This document shows, in pieces, positions 1 through 57,950 of a stretch of DNA of 64,000 bases. The notes below the pieces were generated by a model, which searched no databases, was not told where the DNA came from, and saw only the letters and a program-made list of their open reading frames with translations. The position numbers and the translations under genes were made by a program. Origin of the DNA: Deroplatys truncata (taxonomy: Eukaryota; Arthropoda; Insecta; Mantodea; Mantidae); NCBI GenBank assembly GCA_030765065.1, contig CM060978.1:53162421-53226420 (forward strand). The letters run 5' to 3'. Position 1 is the first letter of the stretch. Each line of letters begins with the position of its first letter.

Positions 1-1388
1 TGTAAATAAATTGTGTATGTTAAAGAGATCTACATTTCTTGTGTAGTACGTTTTCGTCTATCGCTTAACGTTTACCAGTTATACAAGATTACACAAAATT
101 CCTTCCGAATGAAGAGGACTTTACAGGCCATTCCCAGAAAATTGAAGATATGCATTTTATTTGACGTGTAAATATCTTTAATATACGATATTTTAATCTA
201 AATTATTAGACCCATTTTTAAAAAAAGAAACATTTTCCAAGTAAAGCTAGTTGGGGTGGGGGTATTTTCTTAAAAAACCCTCCTGTCGCATCTTGAAGTA
301 GGTGTTGTATTGTAGTAGTATTATATTTCAACTGTTGTGGAGCCGAACTTGTAGTAGCTGCAACCGCACGTATAGTACCCGGTAGCCATCGTTCAAAAAT
401 TTAAAAAAAAATATAAACTTTGTAATTTGACTGTTTCTTTAAACATTATATATTTATGTTTGCCTCGGCTGCGTCAGTATTATTGTTAGAGACATGGATA
501 TCTTAGCAAGGTTGTGGTGTGACAAGAATGTAGGCTTACACAGATTATAATTTTACTTCACTCCTTTTGTTAACACTTGATACGATTAAAATAACGCTTC
601 TCTGATATAGAGAGTTTTGAGATTCTTTTTATTAATTAATTACAGTTTTTTAATACGTAAACTTATTTTTCGTCTCACACGAATACATATTATATTTCTT
701 CAGGACACTTTAGGACTACTGTTTGAAGGCAACTGACTTCTAGATTTGTAAATTTTGCTATATTTCAGTTTCTGATTGTCTAATCCTACACCAATAGAAT
801 ACCTTCATTTAACTAAAGCTTTTTCTGGTTGTTGATTGGCTATTTTATAAACTGTCACTAAAATAACATTATTGTTACTTCAAAAATCACAAGTAGTACT
901 GTTAAACTTTCTTACTCATTATTGCCTCAAGGTTACCTCATTGTTACCTCATTGTTAGCAACTTTAAACTTATTATTCTCACAGCTCCTACATTATTAAA
1001 TACGTAATATAATCACATAACATTATCACATATGGATACAATAATATAAGCATATACAATGACTGTTACATACATTTTACAAATTATTACATACACATAT
1101 TGCTTCAAGGCGGGCTGTTATTGAATTTATATTTATATAATTAGACTAAAATTATATAAATGTTAAAAATACTGCATCAATCTGACTTATCTGACTTTTC
1201 GTTTTTGAGTTTAGTTGTTCACACACACTCAAATGAACCTTTATCTAAAAATGTTTTTTTTTGTTTGAATTCAGGGGATTTCAAAACATGTATTTACGGT
1301 GTAATCTCGGTATCGAATTTTTTGGTGGAATGCAATACCTTCTCTACCTACTATGTTCGTGGTAGAGAAAGTAAAAACCACTTTTAGG
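1..1388 (+). repeat. Rep-A copy interrupted by a solo LTR
   Basis: A Rep-A copy in forward orientation enters from outside the window (its left end is missing) and finishes with the family's right terminus 'gtagagaaagtaaaaa' near 1388. It is split by the solo LTR at 294-1179, and ATCT is present on both sides of the LTR. The sequence resumes after the LTR exactly where other copies read on (the stretch before the internal CA tract), so the LTR arrived later. No gene is visible here. Confidence 0.75.
294..1179. mobile_element. Solo LTR, family B (copy 1)
   Basis: An 886-bp block begins TGAAGTAGG and ends ACTGCATCA, flanked by the perfect 4-bp duplication ATCT (290-293 and 1180-1183). It shares the family landmarks 'cctcggctgcgtcagtatt' and 'gtaggcttacacagatt' with seven other blocks in the window. 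TG...CA ends plus a 4-bp target duplication are what a Ty3/gypsy-type LTR leaves after the internal region recombines out. The TATA-rich stretch and the position of PBS-like units suggest the element is transcribed from right to left, but this is inferred. Confidence 0.88.
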
Positions 1389-2830
1389 AAAAGGTCTGTA
1401 TGTGTGTCTGAACAGCATAACTCAAAAACGAAACGTTTGGAATATACAAAATTTGGTAGTTAGGTTCAGTAACTTCCGAAGATACGACACGAATATTTTC
1501 AAGAAAAATCACCCCAACTCAAACTACTCTTTATACAGAACATTTTTAGAAATGTTTGATTTTCTAAAAAAAATGGCTCTAACGATTTTGATAAAAATAC
1601 CATGTATTAAATTTTCTGGGAACAGCCTGACTTTTACATAATTTTGTATAACTGGTAAACTTTAAGAGATATAAGAAATTTACTACACAAGAAATGTAGA
1701 TCTCTTTAAAACACACAATTTACTTTAAATAAACTTTTTGTGGCATTAGCCATTTCTGAGATATCCATTATTGATTATTAGATTTGCTCAATGCTTTGAT
1801 CTTTTTAAGTACCATAGATATTCAGTTGTTTCTCGCGATTGCATGGAAACAGTATGAAATTTTAAGCGTCCAGATCTTGAACATTTGACTAGCGTTGTTT
1901 CCTTTGCATCTATAACGTAATGTGTAATGTAGCTATTTCTGCAAAATATTTATTTGGATAAAATGTAGCAGACAGAAAAAAATCTGATGTGTTACACTCA
2001 CATGACTTTCTCTACCCTTGTACAAACTATTTTTACAAACGGTTATTCTCCATATGCTTCATGTTAATCGAGATGTTAATCTTAGTGCTAATTTTCTTGT
2101 AGTTGCAAGGGGAATATGGTAGGTTATAAGTGATAGTCAAATATTTTAAGAGCTGATTGCTATGTGGAGCATTCCATTCTCATTGTATGTCCAGTACATA
2201 AAAAAACAAATAACGAATTCCCATTTGAGAAAAAGTATTGGTAAATTTAAAGAATAACAAGCAATATCTCGAAAATGGTTCACTCAACAGAAAAAATGTA
2301 TATGACATAAATTGTGTATTTTAACAGGATCTACATTTTTTATGTAGTAAAATTTTGTCTATCTCTTATGGTTTACCAGTTATGCAAAAGTCGTTCACAA
2401 TGAAGAATACGTTAGGAGACATTCCCAGAAAATTCGAGATATACATTTTATTTGTCATGAAAGATCTTAAATATATGATATTTTATCGCTAGAGACATTT
2501 TTGAGAAAATTAAAATTTTCGAAAAATGTTTCATGTAAAGGGTAGTCTAGGGTGGGGGAATTTTCTTGAAAACCTTTGTGTCGTATCCCTGGGAATACTG
2601 AACCTAAATACCAAGTTTGGTGTTTATCCACTGTTCGTTTCTGAGTTATATGTTCACAGACACACACACACACACACTCACACACACACACACACGGAAA
2701 TGTTTCCAAATATGCTGTTTTTGGATTCAGGGCGTCTCAAAACATATATTTCCGGTGAAATCTCGGTATCGAATTTTTGGGTGGAATACAATACTACCCC
2801 TACTTACTGTACGTAGTAGAGAAAGTAAAA
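1389..2830. repeat. Rep-A copies, inverted pair (1389-1976 minus, 1981-2830 plus)
   Basis: The first part reads as Rep-A in reverse, lacking its outermost right end. The second is a near full-length forward copy: it starts 'aatctgatgtgttacac', carries a (CA)n tract at about 2656-2696, and ends 'gtagtagagaaagtaaaaa'. Short open frames here translate the repeat's CA tract and flanks and are not genes. Confidence 0.75.
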
Positions 2831-3077
2831 AGGCTTATATTTCTATATACTTCTTGTGAGTCCAGATAAATGTTTGCATAAATGTTTTCATTACACGTTT
2901 AGTTGTAGGTGCAAGAAGGATATAGGAGCCTGAATTGTGGCGACGCTTTAAAACATGATAAAAGTATTGACAAATTCAAACCAGTCGCAAAAACGCGTAG
3001 GAAATGGTTAATGCCACAAAAGCTTTATTTGAAATAATATGTGTGTTTTAAATATATTTACAACGTAGTATCACGGT
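2831..3077 (+). repeat. Rep-A' copy, left part (target of LTR element)
   Basis: A diverged Rep-A relative is interrupted at 3077 by the LTR retrotransposon and resumes at 7044. The 4-bp CGGT is found on both sides of the insertion (3074-3077 and 7044-7047). Confidence 0.65.
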
Positions 3078-4102: not shown

Positions 4103-4113
4103 TATGCCCCACT
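4103..4113 (-). promoter_or_regulatory. Polypurine tract
   Basis: On the minus strand AGTGGGGCATA abuts the LTR that starts TGATACGG. A purine-rich tract directly before the 3' LTR primes plus-strand DNA synthesis in LTR elements, and its position fixes the minus orientation. Confidence 0.7.
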
Positions 4114-4707: not shown

Positions 4708-4709
4708 TA

Positions 4710-4740
<31 letters not shown>

Positions 4741-7043: not shown

Positions 7044-8975
7044 CGGTTTACTCGTTATACAAAATTATACAAAATATGTTCGAAAGAATAGGAATTCACA
7101 GACTATACGCAGAAAATTCCACATATACATTTCGTTAGTTAAATAAACACCCTAAAATTGTATTTTAATAAAGCTGTTAGAGGTAGTTTTGCTAAAATAA
7201 AAAACAATCAACATTTGTTCATGCAAAGGGTAGTTTGGAGAGGGGAGTTTCTTGAAAATCATTTCCTATCATTTGAAGATGAACCAAGGGGGTGATTTTA
7301 GGAGTAGCCGAACTTGAAGTAGTTGCAACCGCACGTATGACACCCGGTAGCCTTCGCCCCAAGTTTAAAAATATATAATTTGTAATTTTTACCGTTTCTT
7401 TAAATATTATATATTTATGTTTGCCTCGGCTGCGTCAGTATTAATTTGTAGAGACATGAATTTCTTAACAAGGAATGGTGCGACTGAAGAATGTAGGCTT
7501 ACACAGATTATAATTTTTACTTCACTACATTTATTAATCCTTGACACGATTTAAATAACACTTCACTGATATAGAGAGCTGTGAGATTATTTATTAATTA
7601 CTTGCACTTTATAACTCGTAAACTTTTTGTCTCATACTGAATACGTATTAAACTTCTCGAGGACGCGTCCCACGTCCGGTTAGGAACGCTGTCTGCTAGC
7701 AACTGAATTGATTTCTACTTCCTAAATTTGTACAATTTGCCCTATTTCAGTTTCTGATTGGCTATTCCTACTCCAATAGTATACTTTTATTTAACTTAAG
7801 CTTTTTTCTGGTTGTTTACTTGCTATTTTATAAACTATCTCAAAAATTACATTATTGTTGCTCCAATAATTACCAGTAGCATTATTAAACTTTCTAATTC
7901 TTTATTATCTCAAGGTTACTCATTGTTACCTCATTGTTAGCAAGTTTTAACTTATTATTCTCACAGCTCCTACATTATAAAATGACGTAATACATTTACA
8001 TAACATTATCAAACATGTACATAATAATATAAACATTTGTACAATGACTGTTACATACATTTTATATGTTATTTTATACACATATTGCTTTAAGGTGGGC
8101 TGTTACTATATGTTATACTATACAATTTGACTGAAATCATTTAAGTGTTGAAAATACTGCCTCAATTATTTATTTATGGATATTTATTAGATTATGCTAT
8201 TCAAGTACACACATACAAGGAAATATTTCTTAAAATTAATGTTTACTTTCTGTATCACTAACCTTGTAAGGTAGAGGAATCATTTCATTTCACCCAAAGC
8301 TTAAAATGAAATTTTCACTGGTAATACAAGTTTTGAGGGCTCTGAATCCAAAGAAGAACATTTTTAGAAGTGTATATTTGTGTGTAGAGTATTACTCAAA
8401 AGCCAAAAGTAAGATAAATTCTAAACTTGGTGTTTGACCTTCCAAAGCTGCACACGAAGATTTTCAAGAAAATTCCCCTACACAAACTGCCAGATGGTAA
8501 ATTGTTCGTCGCTTTTGATTTTCACACATACCTCTAACGAATTTTGATTGAAATACGGCATATTTAAGAAATTTACACGACAATTAAAATGTATATCTTG
8601 AATCTTATGGGAATAACATTGAACCCCTCTTCATTCGGAAATAATGTGTATAAGGATAGACAAAAACGACAGTTGATGTCACAACATACACAACATACAC
8701 AATTTATTTCAAATAACTTTTTCTGGCTTCAACCATTTCCGACATAACTGCTATTATTGGTTTGAATATTTCAATACTTTGTCAATTTCTAAGGTGCTGT
8801 CGCTATTCAGTTGCTTCTCGCAATACCACGGAAACAGTATGGAATTTCAAGGCACCATATTTAGAGATCCGTTTTAAAGGATTTGTTTATCCTGTCTGCT
8901 GTATGTTCTTTGTAACTACAACGAAGTGTATAAGGAACCATTTCTGCAAACTTTATCTCGTTTAATCTAAAGTAG
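7044..8975. repeat. Rep-A' copies, with solo LTR
   Basis: From 7044 the Rep-A' copy interrupted at 3077 resumes. It is broken again by the solo LTR ending at 8164 and runs to about 8240. From about 8285 to 8975 a reverse Rep-A' copy follows. The sequence is diverged and indel-rich, older than the elements inserted in it. No coding sequence is visible. Confidence 0.6.
7274..8164. mobile_element. Solo LTR, family B (copy 2, degraded left end)
   Basis: It contains the family B core ('gcctcggctgcgtcagtatt', 'aggcttacacagattat') and the right end 'aaaatactgcctca' at 8164. The left end is blurred: the boundary lies between 7274 and about 7284 because Rep-A' sequence is similar there, and I find no clean duplication. 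Confidence 0.7.
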
Positions 8976-11139: not shown

Positions 11140-12144
11140 TGAAGTAGGTCGGTTTTACTGTTGAACTTTACGTTGTTTATTTATTTAGCTACACGTATGG
11201 GTGTCAATTTGAGAAAGTGTTTTGTTACTAGGAGTTTACACCACGCTTTGGGCGTTAATTTGAAGTAGAGTTACTGTTGTTACGTAATATGCTGTTATGT
11301 ATGTAAAGCCGATTTTTAAGATGTATTTTTGTTGTTACGCTCCAAGTTTAAAAAAATTTACTTTGTTATTAAGCTGGTTCTATAGATATTATTTATGTTT
11401 GTTTTTGCCTCGGCTGCGTCAGTATTACTTTAGAGACACGTTTCTCTTAATCAGGGCGTGGTGCGACAAGAATGTAGGTTTACACAGATTTTAAGTTTAA
11501 ATTCACTTCTTTTTATTAATCCTTGACACAAATTAAATAGCACTACACCGATATCAAGAGCTGTGGGATTCTTTATTTAATACTTGCACTTTTTCATCGC
11601 GTATACTTATTTTACATCTCACACGAATAAGTAATATTTCTCTAGAAAACACATCTTCCATCCGGTCACTATCAAGGTCAGCGAGCAACTGAACATATTT
11701 CAACCGTCCAAACCCGCAAACCTTGATATTTCAAGTCTCTGATTGGTTAATCCTAGTCCACTAGAATACCTGCATTTTACTAAAGCTTTTTCTAGCTGTT
11801 GATTGGCTATTTTGAAACTGTCACAAAATTTACATTATCGTTGCTCTAATCATGACTAGTAGCATTTAAACTCTCAAACTCATTGTTACCTCAAGGTTAC
11901 CTCATTGTTACCTCATTGCTAACAACGTTAAACTTATTATTCTCACAGCTCTTACATTATTAGATTACGTAATGCATTCACAAAACATTGTTAAACATGT
12001 TTGCAATAATATAAGCATATGCAATCACTGTTACATACATTTTTATAAATTATTACATACATATTGCTTCAAGGCGAGCTGTTATTGAATTTACATATTA
12101 TATAATTTAAATGAAATTATTCAAGTGTTAAAAATACTGCTTCA
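11140..12144. mobile_element. Solo LTR, family B variant (copy 3)
   Basis: This 1005-bp block runs from TGAAGTAGG to ACTGCTTCA, flanked by a perfect AAGT duplication (11136-11139 and 12145-12148). It belongs to a longer subfamily with 44623-45558. Its left part carries two or three degenerate copies of a 'cacgtatggg...caatttga' unit, like the PBS-like repeats in the young LTR element. Confidence 0.9.
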
Positions 12145-12453: not shown

Positions 12454-13761
12454 CGAGGGTAGTCCCAGAAGTACATGAGTTGACGTATATATAGCGGTTG
12501 TTGTTCCAAACAAATGACTATGTTAGAAAGTACCAACCTTATAAAGCTTAAGTTTGAAATTTGACGATACTACGTTGTTTAGTAATTGTTCGGGCAGGCA
12601 TTAATAATGAACTCTCTCAGCGAATTTGTAAACATGGATAAAACTGGCCATCGTTATGTGATACAATACTTTCATTTGAAAGGTCTTAGTCCAACTAATA
12701 TTAAAGCTAGATTCTACTCTGGGGGAGTCTGCCCCTTTGCTTACAACAGTAAAATATTGGGTGGCAGAGTTTAAACCAGGCCGTACGAGCTGCCAAGACG
12801 AACATCGCAGTGGTCGACCAAATGAGGTGACCACGCCAGAAACTGTGAAGAAAATCCACAAAATGGTATTGGATGACCGTTGACTGAAAGTGTGCGAGCT
12901 AGCAGACATCCTAGGCATTTTAAACAGTGTTATACATCGCATACTGACTGAAAATGTAGACATGAGAAAGCTGTGCGCAAGATGGGTGCCGCGTTTACTC
13001 ACAATGGAACTAAAGCAGCGTCATGAGGATGTTTCAGTCGAGTGTTTGGCGATGTTTCGCTGCAATAAAGCAGAGTTTTTGCGTCGGTTCATAACCATGG
13101 GTGAAACATGGTTTCATCACTTCACACCTGAGACGAAGGAACTGTCAAAACGGTGGATTGAAAGGGAAGAATCGGCTCCAAAGAAGGCGAAGGCAGTTCC
13201 ATCTGCAGGCAAGGTCATGGCGTCAGTTTTTGGGGATGCGCGTGGTATAATTTTCATTGATTATCTTCAAAAATGAAAGCAATCAATGGCGAGTATTATG
13301 CAAACTTATTGCAGGGTTTGAATGATGAAATCAAGCAAAAAAGGTCGCATTTAGCGAAAAAGAAAGTTATGTTTTATCAAGACAATACACCAGTTCACAC
13401 ATCCAATATCGCCATCGCCAAAATCAATGAATTAAAATTAGAATTGCTTCCTCATGCACCCTATTCGCCAGACTTAGCCCCCTCTCATTTTTTTTTCTGT
13501 TTCCAAAGTTGAAGAAATGGCTTGGTGGTAAAAGATTTGCCAACAATGAAGAGGTGAAGTTTACAGTTGATGGCTATTTTGCAGAACTCGACGGTTCTCA
13601 CTATAAACAGGGTATCGAAGCTATTGAACATCGCTGGGAAAAGCGTATCGCGCTGAAAGGAGACTATGTAGAGAAATAAAGATGTTTTTTCCGAACGTTT
13701 TTGCATTTTCTTCTATAGGTCGGTACTTTTGGGACAGTCGGTACTTCTGGGACAGCCCTCG
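12454..13761 (+). mobile_element. Mariner element, both ends present, inactive
   Basis: The inverted termini match: CGAGGGTAGTCCCAGAAGTA at the left, and the complement of a CGAGGGCTGTCCCAGAAGTA end at the right. TA follows the right end; the left flank has drifted to TG. Its length of about 1.3 kb is normal for mariner. Near the right end the terminal motif is partly duplicated ('cggtacttttgggacag' then 'cggtacttctgggacag'). Confidence 0.88.
12607..13679 (+). pseudogene. Mariner transposase, broken
   Basis: The frame is split by frameshifts and stops into pieces at 12607-12774, 12890-13276 and 13273-13512, with a further C-terminal stretch to about 13679. In order one sees the N-terminal DNA-binding region, a 'WVPRLL' version of the mariner WVPHEL motif, the catalytic core, and a SPDLAP motif. 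The first catalytic Asp site reads MGETW instead of the family's MDETW, and the last reads SPDLAPSH instead of SPDLAPSD. Two of the three metal-binding aspartates are therefore replaced, while the middle one (QDNTPVHT) remains. Overall it resembles the mauritiana-like insect mariners. It cannot be an active enzyme. Confidence 0.88.
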
Positions 13762-14249: not shown

Positions 14250-15686
14250 TATGCTGGCATTAAAACTCCATATTATTGCCATGATATGGCGAGAAACAAC
14301 TGAATAGCGTCTGTATTTTAGCAAATGACAACGGTGTTGAAAACTTGGAACCAATAATGATGGATATCTCGGAAATGGTTGATGCCACCAAAGTATTATT
14401 TGAAATAAATTGTGGGTTTTAAAAAGTTCTGCAATTTTTGTGTAGTAAGTTTTAGTCTTCTTTTATGGTTTACCCGTTAAACATTATAAAAATTTCCCGC
14501 CGAATAAAGAGACTTCATAGAGCATTCGCAGAAAATGTAAGATACATATTTTATTTGTCATGCAAATATCTTAAATGCATAGAATTTTAATCAAAATTAT
14601 TAAAGTCAATTTAAAAAAATAAACAATATGGAAAATTCTATAAACAGGACAGTTTAGGTTTGGGGATTCTCTTGAAAATCTTCATGCCATATTTTTGGAA
14701 GATATTGAACCTAACATTATCGGACATTTCGTTTTTTGAATTGTGTTGTTGATATATACACACGAACCTTTTGAATTAAGGGGGCCTCAAAACATGTATT
14801 TTACAAACTATGAATTTTTAATATAGAAAAATCTGATGTTACACTCACATGACTTTATCTACTCTTGAACAAACTATTTTTACAAACGCTTATTCCCCAT
14901 ATGCTTCATGTTAATCGAGATGTTAATCTTATTGCTAATTTTCTTGTAGATGCAAGGGGAATATGGTAGGCTTTAAGCGATAGTCAAATATTTTAAGAGC
15001 TGGATGCCATGTGGAGTATTCCTTACTCTTTGCATTACCAGGACAAAAAAATGAATAACGAATTCCCATTTGAGAAAAAGTATAAGTATTGGAAAATTTA
15101 TGGGAATACCAAGCAATATCTTGAAAATGGTTCACTCAACAACCAATATATATATAAATTGTGTAATTTAACGCAATCTACATTTTTTGTGTAGTAAAAT
15201 TTTGTCTATCTCTTATGGTTTAGCAGTTATCCAAAAGTCGTTCATAATGAAGAATACTTTTGGAGACATTTCCAGAACATTCAAGATATACATTTGATTT
15301 GTCATGAAAATATCTTAAACATATGATATTTTAATCATAATCGTTAGAGCTATTTTTGAGAAAATTAAAATTTTCGAAAAATGTTCCATGTAAAGTGTAA
15401 TCTGGGGTAGGGGGATTTCTTGAAAACCTTTGTGTCGCATCTCTGGAAGATACTGAATCTAAATATCAAGTTTGGTGTTTATCTTACTGTTCGTTTCTGC
15501 GTTACGCTGTTCACAGACACACACACAGACAGAACACAGACACACACGCGGACATGTTTCCAAAAATGCTTTTTTTTGGATTCAGGGGGTCTCAAAACAT
15601 ATATTTCCGGTGAAATCTCGGTATCGAATTTTTGGGTGGAATACAATACTTCCCCTACTTACTATACGTAGTAGAGAAAGTAAAAA
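14250..15686 (+). repeat. Rep-A' fragment followed by full-length Rep-A
   Basis: A forward Rep-A' piece (14250-14828) is joined to a full-length Rep-A copy (14829-15686, 858 bp). The latter is a good reference copy, from 'aatctgatgtt...gacttt' to 'gtagtagagaaagtaaaaa' with a CA-rich tract at about 15518-15550. Confidence 0.8.
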
Positions 15687-16215: not shown

Positions 16216-18163
16216 TATATATATATTAATCGAGATAAACATTTGCAGAAACGATATTTCGACATACAAAGAGAATGCAAGGGCAATATAGAAATACAGT
16301 AACCTTTAAGCACATGCATATGTCTTAATAGCTGGTTGCTAGGTGCAGCACCATTCTCTTTGTCACAGATTAATACTCTTTGCATATCCAAGACAAAAAA
16401 TGAATAACGAATTCCCATTTGAGAAAAAGTATAAGTATTGAAAAATTTAAGGGAGTAACAAGCAATATCTCGAAAATGGTTCACTCAACAAAAAAATGTA
16501 TATGACATAAATTGTGTATTTTAACGCGATCTACATTTTTTGTGTCGTAAAATTTTGTCTATCTGTTATGGTTTACCAGTTATGTAAAAGTTGTTCACAA
16601 TGAAGAATACTTTTGGACACATTCCCAGAAAATTCGAGATATACATTTTATTTTTCATGAAAATATTTTAAACATATGATATTTTAATCAAAATCGTTAG
16701 AGCCATTTTAGAGAAAATTAAAATTTTCGAAAAATGCTCCAAGTAAAGGGTAATCTGGGGTGGGGGGATATTCTTTAAAACCTTCGTGTCGCATCCGTGG
16801 AAGATACTAAGTTTGGTGTTTATCCGACTGTAATTTGTACAAGAGTAGAGAAAGTCAAGTGAGTGCAACACATCAGACTTTTTAGTCATGCTGTTCACAA
16901 AAACACATAGGTCCTTTTTCTAAAAATGCTCTATTTTCAATTCAGGGGGCTTCCAAACGTGTATTTTCTGTGATATCTCGGTATGGAATTACTAGAATAC
17001 AGTACCTTCTCCTCCGACTATGTACGTGGGAGAGAATGTAAAAGTGTGCGTTCGTGGGTGCAACAGATCAAATAAGGCCGAATGTCGTGTGAAAACGAAC
17101 AGACACATCCTCGCCCCCGCACCAGCCGGTGAAACATCATGGCAAGCGTCATCTTTTTCAGCACTACTGCATACTCGAAACTTCTTCCACACTTAATCGA
17201 AGATCCTCCAAAGCATATTTTTACTTTCTCTACTACATATGGTAAATAGGGGAAGTATTGTATTCCACCCAAAAATTCGTTACCGAGATTTCACCGGAAA
17301 TACATGTTACCCTGAATATAAAAAAAAGCATTTTTGGAAACATGTCTGTGTGTGTGTCTGTGAACAGCATAACTCAGAAACGAACAGTCGGATAAACACC
17401 AAACTTGGTATTTAGGTTCAGTATGTTCCAGAGATGCGACACGAAGGTTTTCAAGAAAATCCCCGCACACTTTATATGGAAAATTTTTCGAAATTTTTAA
17501 TTTTCTCAAAAATGGCTCTTACGATTTTGAATAAAATATCATATGTTTAAGATATTTTCATGACAAATAAAATGTATATCTCGAATTTTCTGGGAATGTC
17601 TCCACAAGTATTCTTCATTCTGAACGACTTTTGCATAACTGGCAAACCATAAGAGATAGACAAAATTTTACTACACAAAAAAATGTAGATCGCTTTAAAA
17701 TACACAATTTATGTCATGCCATTTTTTGTTGAGTGAACCATTTTCGAGATATTGCTTGTTATTCCCTTAAATTTTTCAATACTTATATTCTCAAATGGGA
17801 ATTCGTTATTCATTTTTTTGTCTTGGATATGCAAAGAGTATTAATCTGTGGCAAAGAGTATGGTGCTGCACCTAGCAACCAGCTATTAAGAGATATGTCT
17901 ATGCTTAAAGGTTACTGAATTTCTATATTGCCCTTGCAAATACAAAACAAGGAGGACATAGTACGCCTTAAGCGATTTAAGCGATAGTCATGTATTTTTA
18001 TAACTGGTCGTAATGTGTAAAATGTAATTTTCTTTGCAAGTCAAAAGATCGTTTCAGCAAATGTTTATCTCGATTAATGTGAAATAGATGGAGCGTAAGA
18101 GTTTGTAAAAATATTTTGTACAAGAGTAGGGAAAGTCATGTGAGTGTAACACATCAGATTTTT
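16216..18163. repeat. Rep-A copies, converging (16216-17043 plus; 17219-18163 minus)
   Basis: Both are of a Rep-A subtype carrying 'ggtgctgcacctagcaacca' in place of the usual mid-segment. The first contains a misplaced copy of the head sequence (16830-16885). The second ends 'catcagattttt'. A less repetitive 175-bp gap lies between them. Confidence 0.7.
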
Positions 18164-24295: not shown

Positions 24296-24385
<90 letters not shown>

Positions 24386-26884: not shown

Positions 26885-26932
26885 TGGAGAACAGGGTGTG
26901 CCACAAGGCTCAGTACTGGGTCCGCTACAGTT
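26885..26932 (+). pseudogene. Tiny non-LTR reverse transcriptase fragment
   Basis: The translation reads GVPQGSVLGPL, the conserved non-LTR reverse-transcriptase block that comes before the catalytic YADD region. Only about 45 bp matches, wedged between Rep-A' sequence at the left and Rep-A sequence at the right ('gttttggaaacatgtccg'). Confidence 0.7.
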
Positions 26933-27674
26933 TTGGAAACATGTCCGTGTGTGTGTCTGTTTGTGTCTGTCTGTGAACAGCATAACTCAGAAACGAACAG
27001 TCGGATAAACACCAAACTTGGTATTTAGGTTCAGTATCTTCCAGAGATGCCACATGAAGGCTTTTAAGAAAATCCTCCCACCCCAGATTACCCTTTACAT
27101 AGAACATCTTTGGAAAATGTTAATTTTCTCAAAAATGACTCTAACGATATTGATTAAAATAGTATATGTTTAAGATATTCCCATGACTAATGAAATGTAT
27201 ATCTCGAACTTTCTGGGAAGGTCTCCAAAAGTATTCTTCATTGTGAACGACTTTTGCATAACTCGTAAACCATGGCATAGACAAAATTTTACTATTCAAA
27301 AAATGTAGATCGCGTTAAAATACACAATCTATGCTATAGACTTTTTTGTTGAGTGAACCATTTTTGAGATATTGCTTGTTATTCCCTTAAATTTTCTAAT
27401 ACTTATACTTTTTCTCAAATGGGAATTCGTTATTCTTTTTTTTTGCTTGGTAATGCAAAGAGAATGGAATGCGCCACATAGCAACCGGCTCTTAAAATAT
27501 TTGACTATCGCTTATAACCTACCATATTCCCCTTGAATCTACAAGAAAATTAGCAATAAGTTTGACATCTCGATATCTCGATTAACATGAAGCATACGGA
27601 AAATAAGCATTTGTAAAAATAGTTTGTACAAGAGTATAGAAAGTCATGTGAGTGTACCACATCAGATTTTTTAT
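26933..27674 (-). repeat. Rep-A copy, missing its right end
   Basis: This reverse copy starts at the internal GT tract and ends 'ccacatcagatttttt'. The missing outer part is replaced by the short reverse-transcriptase fragment. Confidence 0.75.
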
Positions 27675-29271: not shown

Positions 29272-29435
29272 TATATGTCATTGACTTATAAAAACGAATA
29301 AACCTGTAAATTATAACGTTTTGAAACTAAGCTTATCGAAGTTTTACGGAAATAACAAAATATTGGAGGATAGGTTGTCATCGCCAGAGTGCGAGTAAAT
29401 GCTCAAAACTGGCGACATAAGTTAAAAGGTTACTT

Positions 29436-30279
29436 TATTACTTTCCCTACTACGTATATTACGTAGGGGAAGTATTGTATTCCACCCAAAAATTCGTTAT
29501 CAGATTTCACCGGAAATATATGTTTTGAGGCCCCCTGAATCCAAAAAAAGCATTTTTAGAAACATGTCCGTGTGTGTGTGCCTGTGAACAGCATAACTCA
29601 AAAACGAACATTCGGATAAACACCAAACTTGGTATTTAGGTTCAGTATCTTCCAGAGATGCGACACGAAGGTTTTCAAGAAAATCCCCCCACCCCAGATT
29701 ACCCTTTACATGGAACCTTTTTCGAAAATTTTAATTTTCTCAAAAATGGCTCTAACGATTTTGATTAAAATATCATATGTTTAAGATATTTTTATGACAA
29801 ATAAAATGTATATCTCGAATTTTCTGGGAATGTCCCCAAAAGTGTTCTTCATTGTGAACGACTTTGGCATAACTGGTAAACCATAAGAGATAAACAAAAT
29901 TTTACTACACAAAAAATGTAGATTACGTTAAAATACATAATTTATGTCATATAAATTTTTGTTGTTGAGTGAATCATTTTCGAGATATTGCTTGTTATTC
30001 CCTTAAATTTTCCAATGCTTTTTCTCAAAGGGAATTGCTTATTAATTTTTTTTCGTCCTGGTAATGCAAAGAGAATGGAATGCACCACATAGCAACCAGC
30101 TCTTAAAATATTTGACTATCGCTTAAAGCCTACCATATTCCCCTTGCATCTATAAGAAAATTAGCAATAAGATTAACATCTCGATTAACATGAAGCATAT
30201 GGAGAATAAGCGTTTGTAAAAATAGTTTGTACAAGAGTAGAGAAAGTCATGTGAGTGTAACATATCAGATTTTTTTTTC
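29436..30279 (-). repeat. Rep-A copy ending against the first GPA2 coding exon
   Basis: This is a full-length reverse copy from 'tactttccctactacg' to 'acatatcagatttttttt'. The terminal T-run merges into TTTTTTTTTCAG directly before the short leader of the GPA2 start exon. Confidence 0.85.
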
Positions 30280-34977: not shown

Positions 34978-35056
<79 letters not shown>

Positions 35057-38047: not shown

Positions 38048-38598
38048 CACTATAATTTCAAAACTTTGAGGTTTTTACAAAAAAATCTTACTTGTTAATT
38101 GTATTAATTAAATGTTGAGATCACGCTGTATTTATTGATTTGTGCAGGTAATGTGAAAGCTACACATATTAAAGCAAAGGAAAATGAACTTAATTTATTA
38201 GAATGTTAAAATTACAATGAACAGTATTTATTTTATTTTAAATACACATACTTCATTGTTTATCTGGGGAATGGATCTCGGTGGGTTATTGTTTTGAAGG
38301 TATATGGGCGATGGGGGAGCTGCACGCGCTTCCCAATAAGATCATAATGAGTCGCTGAAGTATTAGGGTTGCCATAACAATTCATTTACGTTAGGTGTAT
38401 ACGTCAGCGTATTCTAATGCGGTCGAACAATAAAGTAGTTTAATTGTGCAATCCTAGCATTATAAACAGGGTGTTACTGTATTTAATATCGCGCTTAATT
38501 GGCTCATTATAGCACACGTGCTAATAATAACAATCACATAATAAAATGTTCTATGTTACCGCGACTTATAGGGAGAAGATGAAACTATTTTGTGATAT
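38048..38598. other. Unannotated intergenic sequence
   Basis: AT-rich sequence; no gene or known repeat seen. Confidence 0.35.
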
Positions 38599-39503
38599 TT
38601 TTACTTTCTCTACTACGTATAGTAAGTAGGGGAAGTATTCGATACCGAGATTTCACCGAAAATACATGTTTTGAGACACCCTGAACCAGAAATTCATGTC
38701 CGTGTGTGTCTGTGAACAGCATAACTCAGAAACGAACAGTCGGATAAACACCAAACTTGGTATTTAGGTTCAGTATCTTCCAGAGATGCGACACCAACGT
38801 TTTCAAGAAACTCCCCCCACCCCAGATTACCCTTTACATGGAACATTTTTGGAAAATTTTAATTTTCTCAAAAATGGCTCTAACGATTTTGTTTAAAATA
38901 TTTTCATGACAAATAAAATGTATATCTTGAATTCTCTGGGAATGTCTCCCAAAAGTATTCTTCATTGTGAACGACTTTTGCATAACTGGTAAACCATAAG
39001 AGATAGACAAAATTTTACTACACAAAAATGTAGATCGCGTTAAAATACACAATTTATGTCATATACATCTTTTTGTTGAGTGAGCTATTTTCGAGATATT
39101 GCTTATTACTCCCTTAAATTTTCCAATACTTATTTTCCCAAATGGGAATTCGTTATTCATTTTTTTGTCTTGGATATGCAAAGAGTTATAATCTGTGGCA
39201 AAGGGAATGGTGCTGCACCTAGCAACCAGCTATTAAGAGATATGTATGTGCTTAAAGGCTACTGTATTTCTATATTGCCCTTGCAATTACAAAACAAGGG
39301 GAACATAGTACGTCTTAATCGATGGTCAAATATTTTTAGAACTGGTCGCTATGTGTAAAATGTGATTCTCTTTGCATGTCAAAAGATCGTTTCTGCAAAT
39401 GTTTATCTCGATTAATATGAAATAGATGGAGCATAAGAATTTGTAAAAATAGTTTGTATAAGAGTAGAGAAATTCATGTGAGTGTAACACATCAGATTTT
39501 TTT
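38599..39503 (-). repeat. Rep-A copy (subtype with 'gctgcacctagcaacca')
   Basis: A full-length reverse copy from 'tactttctctactacgta' to 'cacatcagattttttt', with a short GT tract near 38700. Confidence 0.82.
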
Positions 39504-42447: not shown

Positions 42448-43956
42448 CAAACAAATCTGATGCGATACATATACATAACTTTCTCTACCCTTTATCGTTT
42501 ATCAGAGGGTATACAAACTATTATTACTAAAGCTTATATTTCTGTCTACTACATTTTAATTCAAATAAACCTTTACAGAAATAGCTACATTACACATTTT
42601 GTTACAGATACAAAGGAAACAGTGACAGTCAAATGTTTAAGTAATCGACGCTATATGTCGCTGCTCACATACACATACGCGTGCGTATACCTTTTTCTAA
42701 AAATTCCCTTATTGTATTAGGGACCTCAAAACATGTATTTCCGGTGAAAGCCGGATATGGAATTTTTGGGTAAAATGCAATATCTTGTCTATCTAATATG
42801 TACCTACATGATAGAGAAAGCAAAAAAATTTTCTCATGTGTTACACTCACATGACTTTTTCTACTCTTGTACGAACTATTTTTACAAACGCTTATTGTCC
42901 ATATGCTTCATGTTAATCGAGATATCGAGATGTAAATCTTATTGCTAATTTTCTTGTAGGTGCAAGGGGAATATGGTAGGTTTTAAGTGATATTCAAATT
43001 TTTTAAGAGTTGGTTGTTATGTGGAGCATTCCATTCTCTTTGCATGTCCAGGACATAAAAAAAATATCTGATGTGTTACACTCACATGACTTTCTCTACT
43101 CTTGTGCAAACTATTTTTACAAACGCTTATTCTCCACCTACTTCATGTTAATCGAGATAAACATTTGCAGACTCTATCTTATTGTTAATTTTCTTGTAGA
43201 TGTAAGAGGAATATATATTTACAAGGGCAATATAGAAATACAGTAGCCCTTAAGCACATACATATCTCTTAATAGCTAGTTGCTACGTGCAGTACCATTC
43301 CCTTTGCCACAGATTAATACTCTTTGCATATCCAAGACAAAAAAATGAATAACGAATTCCCATTTGAGAAAATAAGTATTGAAACATTTAAGGGAATAAC
43401 AGGCAATATCTCGAAAATGGTTCACTCAACAAAAAAATGTATATGACATAAATTGTGTGTTTTAATGCGATCTACATTGTTTGTGTAGTAAAATTTTGTC
43501 TATCTCTTATGGTTTACCAGTTATGCAAAAGTCGTTCACAATGAAGAATACTTTTGGAGACATTCCCAGAAAATTCAAGATATGCATTTTATTTGTCATG
43601 AAAATATCTTAAACATATGATATTTTAATCAACATCGTTATCCATTTTTGAGAAAATTGAAATTTTCGAAAAATGTTCCATGTAAAGGGTAATCTGTGGT
43701 GTGGGGATTATATTTAAAACCTTCGTGTCGCATCTCTAGAAGATACTGAACCTAAATACCAAGTTTGGTGTTTATCCGACCGTTCGTTTCTGAGTTATGC
43801 TGTTCACAGACACACACACACACGGTAATGTTTCCAAAATTCTTTTTTTGGATTCAGGGGGTCTCAAGACATATATTTCCGGTGAAATCTCGGTATCGAA
43901 TGTTTGGGTGGAATACAATACTTCCCCTACTTACTATACGTAGTAGAGAAAGTAAA
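42448..43956 (+). repeat. Three Rep-A family units in a row, all forward
   Basis: Rep-A' (42448-42830), a truncated Rep-A head (42832-43058) and a full-length subtype copy (43062-43956, with a CA tract near 43808) follow each other. The junctions are A-runs directly before the next 'tctgatgtgttacac' or 'tctcatgtgttacac' head. Confidence 0.78.
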
Positions 43957-44399
43957 AATGTGTTTATTAATTCAGATGATTGTAAGATGTGTATTTGTCG
44001 TGAAATCTGCACATGAAGTTTTGCATGGAATGCAATAGTTTCTCTCAATAAAGGTGAATGGTAGATTCTTGTTAATGTTGAGGATATATGGAGAACATTT
44101 TTGTAAATTTGAAAAATGTGTCAGTTTCAACAGACGTTACAGAAAGCATATGTCGCGAGCCTTTTGTGGTACTCACTCCACAGTTCCTAGAAACTTCTAT
44201 ACATGCACCTGTTTATTTCGAGGTTTTTACAAAATGAGAGCGGTGTGAATGTAGGTAGTTACTATTTCGATGTGCCTGGTCCATGAATGAAGTTAATTAG
44301 AGAAGTGACCTGTGTTTGATACGTGGGCGTTGATAATTTCATCTCTCTGCGTGTCAGTCTCCGTTTTACTGGTTTTATACTCCTTACTTATTTAACACG

Positions 44400-44622: not shown

Positions 44623-45558
44623 TGAAGAAGTATTGTTCTTGGAGTTTATTGTTTATTTATTTAGCTCCACGTATGGACGTTAATTTTAAGAAGATTGTTT
44701 GTTACGTAATATGCTGTTACGTATGAGAAGCCGATTGTAAGATGTATGTTACGCTCCAAGTTTAAAAGAACATTTATTAATTTTGTTATTAAACTGCTTC
44801 TATAGATAGTATTTATGTTTATTTTTTTGCCTCGGGTGCGTCAGTATTACTTTAGAGACACGTTTCTCTTAATCAGGGCGTGGTGCGACAAGAATGTAGG
44901 CTTACACAGATTTTAAGTTTAAATTCACTTCTTTTTATTAATCCTTGACACAAATTAAATAGCACTACACTGATATCAAGAGCTGTGAGATTCTTTAATT
45001 TAAAACTTGCACTTTGTTAACGCGTATACATAATTTTCGTTTCATAGGAATACGTAATATTTCTTTAGAGAACACATCTTACATCCGGTTGCTATCAAGG
45101 TCTGCAGGCAACTGAACATATTTCAACCGTCCAAACCCGTAAACTTCTGTATTTCAAGGCTCTGATTGGCTAATCCTAGTCCAATAGAATGCCTGCATTT
45201 TATTAAAGCTTTTTCTGGCTGTTGATTGGCTGATTTTAAACTGTCACAAAATTTACATTATTGCTGCCTTAATCATGACTAGTAGAATTTAAACTCTCAA
45301 AACTCATTATTGCTTCAAAGTTACCACATTGTTAGCAACTATAAACTTATTATTCTCACAGCTCCTACATTATTAAATTACGTAATGCATTTACATAACA
45401 TTATTGAACATGTTTACAGTAAAATAACCATATGCAATGACTGTTACATACATTTTAAAAATTATTACATACATATTGTTTTAAATTGAATTTACATATT
45501 GAATTTACATATTCTATAATTTAATTTAAATAATTAAAGTGTTAGAAATACTGCCTCA
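44623..45558. mobile_element. Solo LTR, family B variant (copy 7)
   Basis: A 936-bp LTR, TGAAGAAGT to ACTGCCTCA, with perfect CCAT duplications (44619-44622 and 45559-45562). It is inserted in the S3 tRNA-like head and belongs to the same subfamily as copy 3. Confidence 0.92.
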
Positions 45559-45754
45559 CCATGGCAACATGCTGGCACGACATTAAATATTGCAACTGAT
45601 TTGCACTTTTCCCGGTAAACCACAAGGAGATCTCAAATTGTATTGACATAACATATCCAATGGCGACTTACAATGTTGTAAGTAAGCCCGGAGCTCATAG
45701 TTTCAACCACTATTAGGTCAATTAGGTCAAGCCGTGTGTTGGACAAGGTTGAAA

Positions 45755-45835: not shown

Positions 45836-45852
45836 TAATTGCACCATTGTTT

Positions 45853-47163
45853 ATTACTTTCTCTACTACTTAAAGTAAGTAGGGGAAGTATTGTATTCCA
45901 CCCAAGAATTAGATACCGAGATTTCACCGGAAATACATGTTTTGAGACCCCCTGAATCCAAAAAAAGCATTTTTGGAAACATGTCCGTGTGTGTATGTTT
46001 GTGTGTCTGTGAACAGCATAACTCAGAAACGAACAGTCGGATAAACACCAAACTTGGTATTTAGCTTCAGTATCTTCCGGAAATGCGACACGAAGGTTTT
46101 CAAGAAAATCCCCCTACCCCAGATTAACCTTTACATGGAACATTTTTCGAAAATTTTAATGTTGTCAAAAATGGCTCTAGCGATTTTGATTTAAATATAT
46201 ATGTTTAAGATGTTTTCATGACAAATGAAATGTATATCTCGAGTTTTCTGGGAATGTCTCCGAAATATGCTTCATTGTGAACGACTTTTGCATAACTGAT
46301 AAACCATAAGAGATCGACAAAGTTTTATTACATAAAAATTTAGATCGCGTTAAAATACACAATTTATGTCATATACATTTTTTTTTGTTGGGTGAACCAT
46401 TTTTCTGATATTGCTTGTTATTCCCTTAAATTTTCCAAAATTTATGCTTTTTTCAAATTCGTTATTCTTTTTGTTATCCTGGTAATGAAAGAGAATGGAA
46501 TACTGCACATAGCATCCAGCTCTTAAAATATTTGACTATCGCTTAAAGCCTATCAATTCCCCTTGCATCTACAAGTAAATTAGCAATAAGATTAACATCT
46601 CGATATCTTGATTAACATGAAGCTAATGGAGAATAAGCGTTTGTAAAAATAGTTTGTACAAGAGTAGAGAAAGTAAGGTGAATATAACACATCAGATTTT
46701 TTTTTGTCCTGGACATACAAAGAGAATGGAATACTCCACATAGCAACCAGCTCTTAAAATATTTGACTATCGCTTAAAGTCTATCAATTCCCCTTGCATC
46801 TACAAGAAAATTAGCAATAAGATTAACATCTCGATATCTTGATTAACATGAAGCATATGGAGAATAAGCGTTTGTAAAAATAGTTTGTACAAGAGTAGAG
46901 AAAGTAAGGTGAATATAACACATCAGATTTTTTTTGTCCTGGACATACAAAGAGAATGGTATACTCCACATAGCAACCAGCTCTTAAAAGATTTGACTAT
47001 CGCTTAAAGCCTACCATATTCCCCTTGCATCTACAAGAAAATTATCAATAAGATTAACATCTCGATATCTCGATTAACACGAAGCATATGGAGAATAAGC
47101 GTTTGTAAAAATAGTTTGTACAAGAGTAGAGAAAGTCATGTGAGTGTAACACATAGATATTTT
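45853..47163 (-). repeat. Rep-A copy followed by tandem duplicates of its terminal ~230 bp
   Basis: A complete reverse copy (45853-46702) is followed by two more copies of its last segment (46703-46936 and 46937-47163). Each starts 'gtcctggacatacaaag' and ends 'cacatcagattttttt' or close to it, giving about three units in tandem. Confidence 0.8.
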
Positions 47164-54700: not shown

Positions 54701-55082
54701 TATTAAGTTCTTGTCTATCTCTCATGTCTTACCGGTTAAAGGTACCCACAGCTGAAATTTGGTTAACTTTCAAAAAATTAAAACATTTGTTTTTCTCCAA
54801 AAATACCTGAATTTTTCGTTTCAATTACATATTATGGCTTTTGCTCTCAGAAACGTTAAGGCTTTAATACGTGACCATTTAATTGCCCAAAACATACAGC
54901 CTAAAGACCTGTATTTACTTCAAATGCCTTATACTCAAATTTGATTTTTCTTATACTTTTGGGCATTAAAGTATTCCACATGTTGTTGTTTGTAACCGAT
55001 CCGGAGAAACTCAGAGGAATGAATTTAAGAAGTGGTATATGGCATAAATATTTCGTCCACTGAGAAACTGTTACAAAAAAAA
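54701..55082. other. Unannotated sequence
   Basis: No gene recognised. A 61-codon plus frame (54759-54944) has no known motif. Confidence 0.35.
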
Positions 55083-56165
55083 TCTGTTGTGTTACACTCA
55101 CATAACTTTCTCTATTCTTGTACAAACTATTTTTACAAACGCTTATTCTCCATATGCCTCATGTTAATCGAGATATCGAGACGTTAATCTTATTGCTAAT
55201 TTTCTTGTAGATGCAAGGGGAATTGCTAGGCTTTAAGCGATAGTCAAATGTTTTAAGAGCTGGTTGTTATGCCCAGGACATAAAAAAATCTGATGTCTTA
55301 CACTCACATGACCTCTGCTCTTGTACAAAGTATTTTTACAAACTCTTATTTTCCATCTATTTCATATTAATCCAGATAAACATTTGCAGAAACGATATTT
55401 TGACATGCAAAGAGAATTACATTTTACACATAGCGACCAGTTCTAAAAATATTTGACTATCGCTTAAGGCCTACTTTGTTCCCCTTGTTTTGTAATTGCA
55501 AGGGCAATATAGCAATATAGTAGCCTTTAAGCATAGACATCTCTCTTAATAGCTGGTTGCTAGGTGCAGCACCATTCTCTTTGCCACAGATTAATGCTCT
55601 TTGCATATCCAAGACAAAAAATGAAAAACGAATTCCCAATTGAGAAAAAGTATAAGTATTAAGAAATTGAAGGGAAGATCTCGAAAATGGTTCACTCAAA
55701 TTTTTGTGTAGTAAAATTTTGTCTATCTCTTATGGTTTACCAGTTATGCAAAAATCGTTCACAATGAAGAATACTTTTGGAGACATTCCCGGAAAATTCG
55801 AGATATACATTTTATTTGTCATGAAAATATCTTAAACATATGATAGTTTAATCCAAAACGTTAAAGCCATTTTTGAGAAATTAAAAATGTTCGGAAAATG
55901 TTCCATGTAAAGAGTAATCTAGGAAGGGGGATTTTCTTGAAAAGCTTCGTGTCGCATCGATATTGAACCTAAATACCAAGTTTGGTGTTTATCCGTCTGT
56001 TTGTTTCTGAGTGTTCACAGACATACAAACGGACATGTATCCAAAAAGGCTTTTTTTGGATTCAGGGGGTCTCAAAACATATATTTCCGGTTAAATCTCG
56101 GTATCGAATTTTTGGGTGGAATACAATACTTCCCCTACTTACTATACGTAGCAGAGAAAGGAATA
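55083..56165 (+). repeat. Rep-A head fragment plus subtype copy
   Basis: A truncated head (55083-55287) is followed by a longer forward copy ending 'cgtagcagagaaagg' at about 56162. The junction is again an A-run before 'tctgatgtcttacac'. Confidence 0.75.
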
Positions 56166-56739
56166 ATTTGTGTGATTTAAATTACACAATGCTTTTTAGA
56201 AAAAAAAGTTTTTTTTCTTTCACTTCTTTTGTTTGCTCTACATTCTACAGTCGATAAAGCAGAGGACAAGAAGAAGATATGAACTCCTTCCCCTATCCCA
56301 TACTGATTTGCCGCTTGAGCGAAGGAAAGGTCAGGATTTGAGAGAAATCTCGTTAACCTCCCTGGAACCAAGCGCCTCTGTTACTAAGCACCGCACAGTC
56401 GGGGCGATAGTCTCTTGTTTTTAAAAAGTAGGCAGCACGGTCTCTTTAAAATACGATGTAAAGCTCATGTAAAACACGATGCGTTGTACCAGATGATAAA
56501 AGGAGGTTGAAATTTGAACACAAAACGAAAATATTATACTTTTTCCCATATTAGCTGCCTATTTTAATCTTTCGTCAAATTACAACTATATTTTTATATT
56601 CTCTGCTACTTATTTACGTCAGGTGGAGGTGGTGTATTTCGCCAAACAAATATATAATTTTATAAAAAAATTCAAGTACTCTTTCACATCACTTTTTTCT
56701 ATTCACGTCCACATATCATTCCTACATAAGTTTAGTACT
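56166..56739. other. Unannotated sequence
   Basis: Unique-looking, with T-rich and GC-richer blocks; no gene recognised. Confidence 0.35.
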
Positions 56740-57950
56740 TTCTCTAACACGTAAAGTAAGTAGAAGTATTATATTCTGGATGTTGAGATTTTACCGGTAG
56801 TACATGTTTTTAGGCCCTCCGATTAAAATATTTAGAAAAAGATTCGTATGTGTGTGTGTGTGTCTTTGAACATTAGGAGTATTCAGGAAAATCCTCCCTC
56901 GCCAGACTATGCTTTACTTGGAATATTTTTACTTTCTCTACTACGTATAGTAAGTAGGAGATGTATTGTATTCCACCCAAAAATTCGATACCGATATTTC
57001 ACCGGAAATATATGTTTTGAGACCCCCTGAATCCAAAAAAAATCATTTTTGGAAACATGCCCGTGTGTGTGTCTGTGAACAGCATAACTCAGAAACGACC
57101 AGTCGGATAAACACCAAACTTGGTATTTATGTTCAGTATCTTCCAGAGATGCGACAGGAAGGTTTTCAAGAAAATCCCCCCACCCCAGATTACCCTTTAC
57201 AAGGAACATTTTTCGAAAAGTTTAATTTTCTCAAAAATGGCTCTAACGATTTTGATTAAAATATCATATGTTCAAAATATTTTATGACAAATGAAATGTA
57301 TATCTAGAATTTTATGGGAATGTCTCCAAAAGTATTCTTCATTGTGAACGAATTTTGCATAACTGGTAAACTATAAGAGATAGACAAAATTTTATTACAC
57401 AAAAAATGTAGATCGTGTTAAAATACACAATTTGTCATATACATTTTTTTGTTGAGTGAACCATTTTCGAGATATTCCTTGTTATTCTCTTAAATTTTTC
57501 AATACTTATTTTCTCAAATGGGAAATCTTTATTCATTTTTATGTCTTGGATATGCAAAGAATATTAATCTGTAGCAAAGGGAATGGTGCTGCACCTAGCA
57601 ACCAGCTATTAAGAGATATGTATGTGCTTAAAGGCTACTGTATTTCTATATTGCCCTTGCAAATACAAAACAAGGGGAACATAGTACGCCTTAAGCGATA
57701 GTCAAATATTTTTAGAACTGGTCGCTATGTGTAAAATTTAATTCTCTTTGCATGTCAAAAGATCGTTTCTGCAAATGTTTATCTCGATTAATATGAAATA
57801 GATGGAGCATAAGAGTTTGTAAAAATAGTTTGTAAAATCTAATGTTTTATTCAGGACACCTCAAAACTTATATTTAGCGTGAAATCTCTATACAGAATTT
57901 TGTGTAGTGCAATACCTTCCCTACATACTATATGTAGTGGAGAAGGGATT
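56740..57950 (-). repeat. Rep-A' fragment and Rep-A subtype copy
   Basis: A reverse Rep-A' outer end (56740-56926) precedes a reverse Rep-A copy (56927-57835) with a GT tract near 57063. A forward 3' scrap ends at about 57945. Confidence 0.75.

Follow-up and report, generated by a model that had tools for sequence, protein, structure and literature searches.

A Helentron/HINE lineage that apparently occupies about a fifth of the 4.3-Gb genome of Deroplatys truncata, often inside its own copies

HINEs are gene-less relatives of autonomous Helentrons, which belong to the Helitron2 side of the rolling-circle elements. In the HINE or DINE-1 (INE-1) systems of mite, Culex and Drosophila, the elements are described as carrying subTIRs, a microsatellite and a 3' palindrome and as entering T-rich targets without duplication; in DINE-1, an IR pairs with the 5' subTIR (PMC4067079). 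Their Helentron partners encode Rep, PIF1 and AP endonuclease, with an S between the G and the P of Rep motif 2 as a Helentron sign (PMC4067079). The subTIRs of HINEs measure about 11-15 bp; one lies near the 5' terminus and the other some 38-60 bp inside the 3' terminus (PMC4067079; PMC7492417). Cg_HINE of the Pacific oyster is composed of a left module (subTIR, IR and microsatellite) and a right module (subTIR and palindrome), contains tandem units of 100-500 bp between the modules and occupies T-rich sites without duplication (PMC7492417). The Helitron2-type FoHeli elements of Fusarium oxysporum form composites with multiple termini, for which self-insertion was the proposed source (PMC5148889). 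The repeat family studied here, Rep-A, resembles all three systems. It is likened to HINE/DINE-1 by structure, not by sequence, and its share of the genome is much larger than those described in PMC4067079. Whereas the oyster tandem units stand between modules (PMC7492417), those of Rep-A are repeats of its 3' part joined at an internal T run. The fungal elements are described as lacking an endonuclease domain and as forming few composites (PMC5148889), in contrast with Rep-A junctions counted in tens of thousands. The element class is already known, and the points of interest are scale and self-nesting. A literature search found neither Rep-A by name nor its literal end strings.

The DNA analysed (the window) is a stretch of 64,000 nucleotides of contig CM060978.1. 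Rep-A, about 850 bp long, accounts for 22,168 of these bases (34.6%) in a profile search. The profile, made from seven copies, gave 65 matches at E<=0.01, 28 of them on the plus strand, and 61 at E<=1e-3, where the reversed window used as a control gave none; this agrees with an earlier note on the same sequence, which had recognised two dozen or more copies on both strands. The final match stops at 57,946. Many matches are older relatives (about 67-76% identity to a full copy) or nested fragments; the 5' end is reached in 26 of the matches (model <=9), the 3' end in 23 (model >=853). With up to three mismatches, the 30-base 5' terminus had 13 matches and the 27-base 3' terminus 14, against zero in 100 shuffles of each. 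Eight copies possess both ends, and the four that had been singled out as full-length are real, aligning end to end. The longest stop-free stretch of the consensus is 95 aa, as expected from the reported lack of coding capacity. A search of Rfam returned tRNA only, and a scan of viral contigs with the exact 5' end as query gave no match. The features of the window are as follows, with strands in Helentron orientation.

1977..2831, minus strand: Rep-A with both ends (profile 2-858)
14827..15686, minus strand: Rep-A with both ends, first genome query (profile 2-857)
16831..16883, plus strand: lone 3' terminal fragment, inverted within another Rep-A copy near its microsatellite
17218..18163, plus strand: Rep-A with both ends, longer variant (profile 2-857)
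26928..27671, plus strand: Rep-A with 3' end; starts at the second T run, model 119 (profile 119-857)
29435..30275, plus strand: Rep-A with both ends (profile 2-858)
38598..39502, plus strand: Rep-A with both ends (profile 2-858)
38603..38614, plus strand: 5' subTIR ACTTTCTCTACT of copy 38598-39502
38625..38636, plus strand: IR AGTAGGGGAAGT, hairpin partner of the 5' subTIR in the same copy
38702..38714, plus strand: GT microsatellite of the same copy
39463..39474, plus strand: 3' subTIR, AGTAGAGAAATT in the same copy and AGTAGAGAAAGT in the consensus
39475..39501, plus strand: 3' palindrome ATGTG..CACAT and terminal CAGATTTTT of the same copy
42831..43062, minus strand: extra 3' unit (model 622-853 by profile), downstream of copy 43061-43958
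43061..43958, minus strand: Rep-A with both ends (profile 2-858)
45851..46702, plus strand: Rep-A with both ends (profile 2-858)
46699..47163, plus strand: two more 231-bp 3' units (model 623-858 twice by profile), with T-run joints
55077..55278, minus strand: extra 3' unit (model 656-858 by profile), downstream of copy 55283-56166
55283..56166, minus strand: Rep-A with both ends (profile 2-858)
56926..57836, plus strand: Rep-A with 5' end and without 3' terminus (profile 2-816)

The HINE layout is visible on the strand opposite to the one first described, whose orientation has to be reversed: the biological 5' end is the former right end (GTAGAGAAAGTAAAAA). The motif ACTTTCTCTACT, reported close to one end and in inverted form at the opposite one, is seen in copies and consensus. 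The subTIRs form an exact 12-bp inverted pair in the consensus, with 5 nt ahead of the 5' one and the 3' one starting 41 nt from the end. The IR AGTAGGGGAAGT pairs with the 5' subTIR in a predicted hairpin of -4.7 kcal/mol, a stability equalled by four of 200 shuffles. The 3' palindrome (ATGTG-7nt-CACAT) is kept in Rep-A and in the coding partner described below; 50 of 200 shuffles fold equally well. A GT-rich microsatellite begins at consensus 137 and its fixed place holds throughout, a GT-rich segment of 18-45 nt occurring there in all 23 spanning copies, degraded in several old ones.

Rep-A targets T runs without target duplication. The duplication test covered 22 copies from the window and other loci, two of 24 (L006 and L074) having been skipped as their end motif was not found; two of the 22 showed at least 2 nt, against 0.96 expected (p=0.24), in line with the earlier observation. 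Of the identity values listed for these copies, use was made of the first 19 rows only, the labels being shifted beyond them by the two skipped copies. Nested insertions are informative in this respect: both halves of the host Rep-A are preserved around the insertion in three of them (L007, C13b and C13c), and in L007 and C13b the host halves are separated by T's alone. Such two-halved insertions confirm the element ends proposed before, save for how many T's they include; both ends of Rep-A contain T runs that vary in length.

An autonomous element with the same ends, which the earlier note had proposed to look for, is present in the same genome. The PF14214 search of that genome gave 152 matches from the 150 scored of 291 candidates. 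Two partner copies read through both ends (~10 kb) each contain a single frame, of 2,441 and 2,387 aa, with Helitron_like_N (4.7e-28 in the first copy) and PIF1 (1.9e-28) domains. Scans of the whole frames at E<=0.01 yielded no endonuclease family among the matches; when scanned alone, the last 223 residues (C-terminal) of the 2,441-aa frame matched Exo_endo_phos_2 (1.8e-6, 28.2 bits for a cut-off of 27.4), and a PDB search with this end found no relative (one match at E=0.37). Rep motif 2 reads RGSPHEH, with the S of Helentrons, at all ten loci L029-L038; among the other 20 Rep loci it was located in L015 and L024, both RGLPHAH. The Rep-A 5' end and last ~36 bp are carried by the 12 partner copies examined (12/12). 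In the ten further copies, read at their ends and in the frame, the Rep-A 5' end and model 818-857/858 are always present, and their distances from Rep are as expected.

Identity between partner and Rep-A is 88-90% over model 2-713 and 34/36 at the 3' end. By the one-family rule (at least 11 identical subTIR bases), the two belong together (GTAGAGAAAGT). The last 60 bases are identical at 41 of 60 positions ungapped and at 48 of 60 gapped; since PMC4067079 requires 80% over 60 bp at the 3' end for one subfamily, the ungapped value places them in different subfamilies. A nearer partner could therefore exist, the 3' identity being below 80% and the 5' identity of 88-90% not above 95%. Rep-A pieces are found inside the partner itself, so that the transfer of ends could have gone from Rep-A to the partner instead of the other way round. 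Around Rep, the partner copies of 10 loci share 96.5-99.3% identity, which suggests that they are fairly recent. The system may be active at present. Another candidate partner, a Helitron Rep frame beside a Rep-A 5' end (L018/L039), was rejected: the frame is antisense to that end, has no more than 336 aa, and borders on a Rep-A piece that stops at model 335.

The suspicion that Rep-A is a HINE is thus supported by the hallmarks and, most decisively, by the existence of an autonomous partner with the same ends. Rep-A is very probably a gene-less relative of this Helentron and would be moved by its protein into T runs. Short inverted repeats close to both ends and an A/T-rich target would also suit a MITE or another cut-and-paste element with terminal inverted repeats, and in some species elements of this kind had first been listed as MITEs (PMC4067079). 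This is very improbable here, as the repeats are asymmetric (offset by 5 nt at one end and by 41 nt at the other), duplication does not exceed chance, T's alone part the host halves, and the partner encodes Rep/PIF1 while no DDE element with Rep-A ends was seen. A SINE or other retroposed origin is less probable still: the A-rich end in the first-described orientation and the occurrence of fragments limited to the 3' end would fit it, but target duplication is lacking, truncation is not confined to one side in the window matches counted above, and it is a Helentron that shares the ends. A formerly unclassified repeat is now classified, with its coding partner in hand.

The following pathway is proposed. 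The Rep/PIF1-helicase/endonuclease of the partner would recognise the shared ends, i.e. the 5' subTIR hairpin and the 3' subTIR, palindrome and CAGATTTT. A single strand would be peeled off through rolling-circle replication, then inserted in T runs without target duplication. The internal T7 run of Rep-A is itself such a target, and insertion there divides the host copy, leaving a head of ~626 bp and a tail of ~235 bp. Repeated insertion at T7, or movement of the composite from an inner or outer end, would produce arrays of 231-bp tails and series of head units. The choice of ends may explain the tail arrays devoid of head units.

At the scale of the 4.29-Gb genome, a sample of 80 kb consists of the Rep-A lineage to 19% (12-27%), and exact matches to the 19-base 5' end number 172,559. 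Such abundance would be high for a single rolling-circle lineage: high genome contents given in PMC4067079 are 6% and 6.62%, and the 28% reported for the house fly in the survey PMC6327564 concerns all Helitrons. A stick insect whose genome is comparable in size has 1.56 Gb of repeats listed as unclassified (PMC10268593); that Rep-A-like elements are among such repeats is only a guess.

Self-nesting is widespread. The two genome-wide counts of nesting junctions are 10,887 and 18,268, with zero for the backward-pattern control; the second consists of Rep-A 5' ends at one internal T run of another copy. These more than ten thousand readable junctions offer a test bed for the strictness of T-run choice and for which of the available ends the machinery uses. 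Nesting also accounts for the 231-bp tandem units, which extend from the internal T run to the 3' end of the element. Ordinary satellite growth by unequal crossover, independent of transposition, would explain the regular 231-232 bp spacing seen in places; a ~3.4-kb tandem array whose unit includes Rep-A does exist, and no head unit precedes the tail array of the window. This explanation is nevertheless unlikely given the boundaries of the units and their surroundings. For 14 of 61 listed tail junctions, a matching head junction lies 834-904 bp upstream on the same strand, i.e. one full element further (null maximum 1 in 1,000 trials), and a head unit and a tail unit flank five of 12 partner copies (HB, C5, C13a, C4 and C5b).

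Together these data lead to a tentative proposal: the lineage may have reached about a fifth of the genome, and a total of roughly one million detectable ends, largely through 'Russian-doll' self-insertion. Its internal T run would be its own preferred target, and nested composites would move from an inner or an outer end; termini, head and tail units and proto-satellites would thus arise anew in a normal life cycle. The excess of T7 junctions could equally result from nested composites that later spread as units, with no target preference, an explanation given just under an even chance. A partner-linked variant, also common to partner composites, was found in 11 of 20 sampled head halves, eight of these 11 being 94-98% like the copy HA. 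Against such spread, six of the 20 belong to the consensus type and have junctions of 5 to 7 T's, which implies several separate insertion events, and the second internal T run has 394 junctions versus 18,268 at the first (counting being uninterrupted for the first run only).

A few other junctions were observed. The joined flanks of 16 window copies, compared with the window, gave two rows across the join, for the copies at 43062 and 55269. Both rows lie within Rep-A repeats and neither is a simple empty site; nested copies from the genome were used in their place. At L003, profile 5-477 and 477-564 also look like the two halves of a host parted by an insertion; the sequence at the junction is less distinct, and this locus was left out of the count. 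In a recurrent junction (1976/1977, 8980/8981 and 18358/18360; L069), the Rep-A 3' end adjoins an older copy that is read in reverse from model ~786. At 1976-2831, the 5' side does not carry on the same older copy; insertion into the A5/T5 run of the older copy fits the 3' side.

Within the limits of what sequence shows, Rep-A, the repeat of about 850 bp that recurs in the window, is a HINE (a non-autonomous Helentron) with an autonomous Helentron of common ends in the same genome. This kind of element is already known; possibly notable for the specialist are the size of this single lineage and its more than ten thousand self-insertion junctions. Rep-A reads in reverse relative to the earlier note. 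Its 5' side runs TTTTT-ACTTTCTCTACT-ACGTATAGTA-AGTAGGGGAAGT, followed by the GT tract at position ~137 of the Rep-A model, and its 3' side holds a run of seven T's at ~616, which separates the head of the element from its tail, and later AGTAGAGAAAGT-CATGTGAGTGTAACACAT-CAGATTTTT at the 3' end. As subTIRs, the first and last blocks pair with each other; the first also pairs with a nearby inverted repeat to form a hairpin, which 4 of 200 shuffles equal. Although conserved, the 3' palindrome is weak (equally good in 50 of 200 shuffles). The same layout is given for DINE-1 and HINEs in passages of PMC4067079 and for oyster HINEs in passages of PMC7492417, elements that Rep-A resembles in this respect.

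A profile made from seven copies matched 65 stretches on both strands of the window (22,168 of 64,000 bases, E<=0.01), eight of which keep both ends; the reversed window gave zero matches to it at E<=1e-3. The copies named in the earlier note are present and align over their full length, and its account of the ends with their inverted motif, of the GT tract and of the absence of coding capacity and target duplication was borne out. Its suspicion of a HINE gained substance from the HINE layout and from the Helentron with common ends. Young copies are 92.9-97.3% identical to the consensus, gaps left out (first 19 rows, copies from outside the window included). Older relatives show about 67-76% identity to a full copy and are often broken by nested insertions.

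The genome assembly (4,289,915,091 bases) was searched for the Helitron Rep domain, with 152 matches from 150 scored of 291 candidates. Long open frames and scores of about 104 bits mark one group of matches, and two of its members, copies HA and HB of the autonomous partner, were read with their flanks. Both start with the Rep-A 5' end and finish with the last ~36-41 bases of Rep-A; each has a Rep-A head (model 2-626) followed by another Rep-A 5' end (model 3-745/746), and the distance between this inner 5' end and the 3' terminus is 10,166 bp in the first and 9,985 bp in the second. Their frames of 2,441 and 2,387 aa contain Helitron_like_N, PIF1 and DUF6570 and match, N-terminally, the herpesvirus tegument N-terminus (Herpes_teg_N, 3.3e-9). 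An AP-type endonuclease came up when the last 223 residues (the C-terminus) of the first frame were scanned alone, and was not listed when whole frames were scanned. A 21-residue (63-bp) tandem array of ~20 copies lies inside the Helentron frame (L040:6363-7616 and the partner frames), and frame lengths vary among partner copies. Rep motif 2 carries the Helentron serine, following the rule given in passages of PMC4067079, at 10 of 10 loci (L029-L038), both fully read copies included. Ten further partner copies, whose ends were retrieved at the predicted spacing from Rep, have the same 5' and 3' ends in 10 of 10; coding evidence in these ten is frame length and Rep match, with the Rep region too for two (L029, L032). 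Canonical-motif (RGLPHAH) Helitrons with stops are present in the same genome (L015, L024).

Rep-A and the partner are 88-90% identical over model 2-713 and agree at 34 of the 36 last bases, and at 41 of 60, ungapped, over the last 60. The rules in passages of PMC4067079 make them one family by the subTIR and separate subfamilies. Given this split, movement of Rep-A by the partner's protein is put no higher than likely. From established knowledge of Helentrons, we infer that the shared ends would lead to actual mobilisation, and by rolling-circle chemistry.

A Rep-A copy used as query gave 7,604 first-look candidates, and the 40 scored were the query itself and 39 others at 89-92% identity over nearly the whole length. 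The consensus gave 1,598 candidates (40 scored), the majority of rows starting near model 148, at the microsatellite. Abundance was estimated from 30 stretches, ten at round-number positions and twenty random, on contigs C1-C3, C5-C7, C9-C11, C13 and C16 (C12 and contigs from C17 upwards lay outside the draw; none fell on C4, C8, C14 or C15). The profile covers 15,446 of the 80,000 sampled bases, or 19.3% (bootstrap interval 12-27%), with a match in 17 of the 30 stretches. Scaled to the genome, this amounts to about 0.8 Gb of Rep-A, with ~1.0 million 5' ends (from 19 in the sample) and about 0.7 million 3' ends (from 13). The genome contains 172,559 exact copies of the 19-base 5' end (control 0); this number predicts about 3 in the 80 kb sample, where 4 are present, and tandem arrays raise such pattern counts. 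Near the start of C1 (G000:C1:20306-122588), the T-run pattern of Rep-A is repeated every ~3,409 bp, at least 31 times; the single unit read (L115, C1:20001-23500) consists of a Rep-A element and ~2.5 kb of other DNA, and the array resembles a chromosome-end macrosatellite that has a HINE within it.

At locus L007, a complete Rep-A lies inside the T run of another Rep-A, whose halves continue on either side. At partner copy C13b, a host Rep-A is interrupted at its second T run (model ~122), its halves being separated by a Rep-A and the partner. Duplication is limited to T's in both cases, and a comparison of the flanks of 22 copies agrees with the absence of target duplication. At partner copy C13c, a reverse-oriented host is split at model 131/134. 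Exact patterns, each with a backward control of 0, counted 18,268 head junctions (head side of the T run joined to a 5' end), 10,887 tail junctions (3' end joined to the tail side), 53,386 uninterrupted T runs and 394 junctions of the head type at the other T run, numbers whose ratios are rough since the patterns are unequal in strictness and the uninterrupted count covers the first T run only. The listing of tail junctions, which reaches 31.0 Mb of C1, has 61 entries, and for 14 of these a head junction lies 834-904 bp upstream on that strand, a distance equal to one whole element; in 1,000 trials with shuffled positions, no trial gave more than 1 such pairing.

Repeated insertion within the inner copy would leave rows of heads in front and of tails behind. 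The same C1 lists hold 21 head-head spacings of 430-700 bp and 5 tail-tail spacings of 215-245 bp. In the window, a 231-bp array (46699-47163) places two tails after a full copy with no head before it; therefore either the head was lost, or transposition started at the inner 5' end and read through to the outer 3' end. Five of the 12 partner copies (HB, C5, C13a, C4, C5b) are preceded by a head and followed by a tail, HA is preceded by a head only, and C9, C1, C10 and C13c have neither; C8 is followed by a tail but preceded by a Rep-A piece that stops at model 711, and C13b is nested in another place. Of twenty head halves chosen from the C1 list, 11 belong to the partner-linked type and 6, with 5-7 T's, to the consensus type, and 3 (L095, L101, L104) are truncated or rearranged. 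Because both the partner-linked (11/20) and the consensus type (6/20) are represented, a preferred target and the spread of composites both seem to contribute to T-run nesting. At L104, a stretch of ~25 bases resembling the 5' subTIR stands between the Rep-A 3' end and the true 5' end; in this one case, transposition possibly started at a cryptic internal 5' end. In four places, the Rep-A 3' end meets an older copy, which starts at model ~786, tail to tail.

Tail-to-tail joins from profile matches (Rep-A 3' end with an older copy)
1976/1977, window
8980/8981, window
18358/18360, window
287/290, locus L069

A second repeat family in the window has eight copies of ~0.8-0.95 kb, with 74-82% identity to the copy at 30964. 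Four of the eight carry a called 11-bp minisatellite, and the copies at 292 and 30964 interrupt Rep-A relatives.

Other features of the window (second-family copies by similarity to the 30964 copy)
292-1179, second-family copy
7306-8164, second-family copy
11339-12144, second-family copy
24018-24903, second-family copy
30964-31885, second-family copy
34699-35626, second-family copy
44753-45560, second-family copy
60099-60976, second-family copy
61529-62602, plus strand, Mariner-type element, a frame divided by a stop into two open stretches, HTH_48 domain in the first
12884-13276, transposase match
18805-19173, transposase match
59362-59775, transposase match
33379-33894, weak transposase match (E=0.0096, below cut-off)
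44553-44625, minus strand, tRNA match (Rfam, 32.6 bits)
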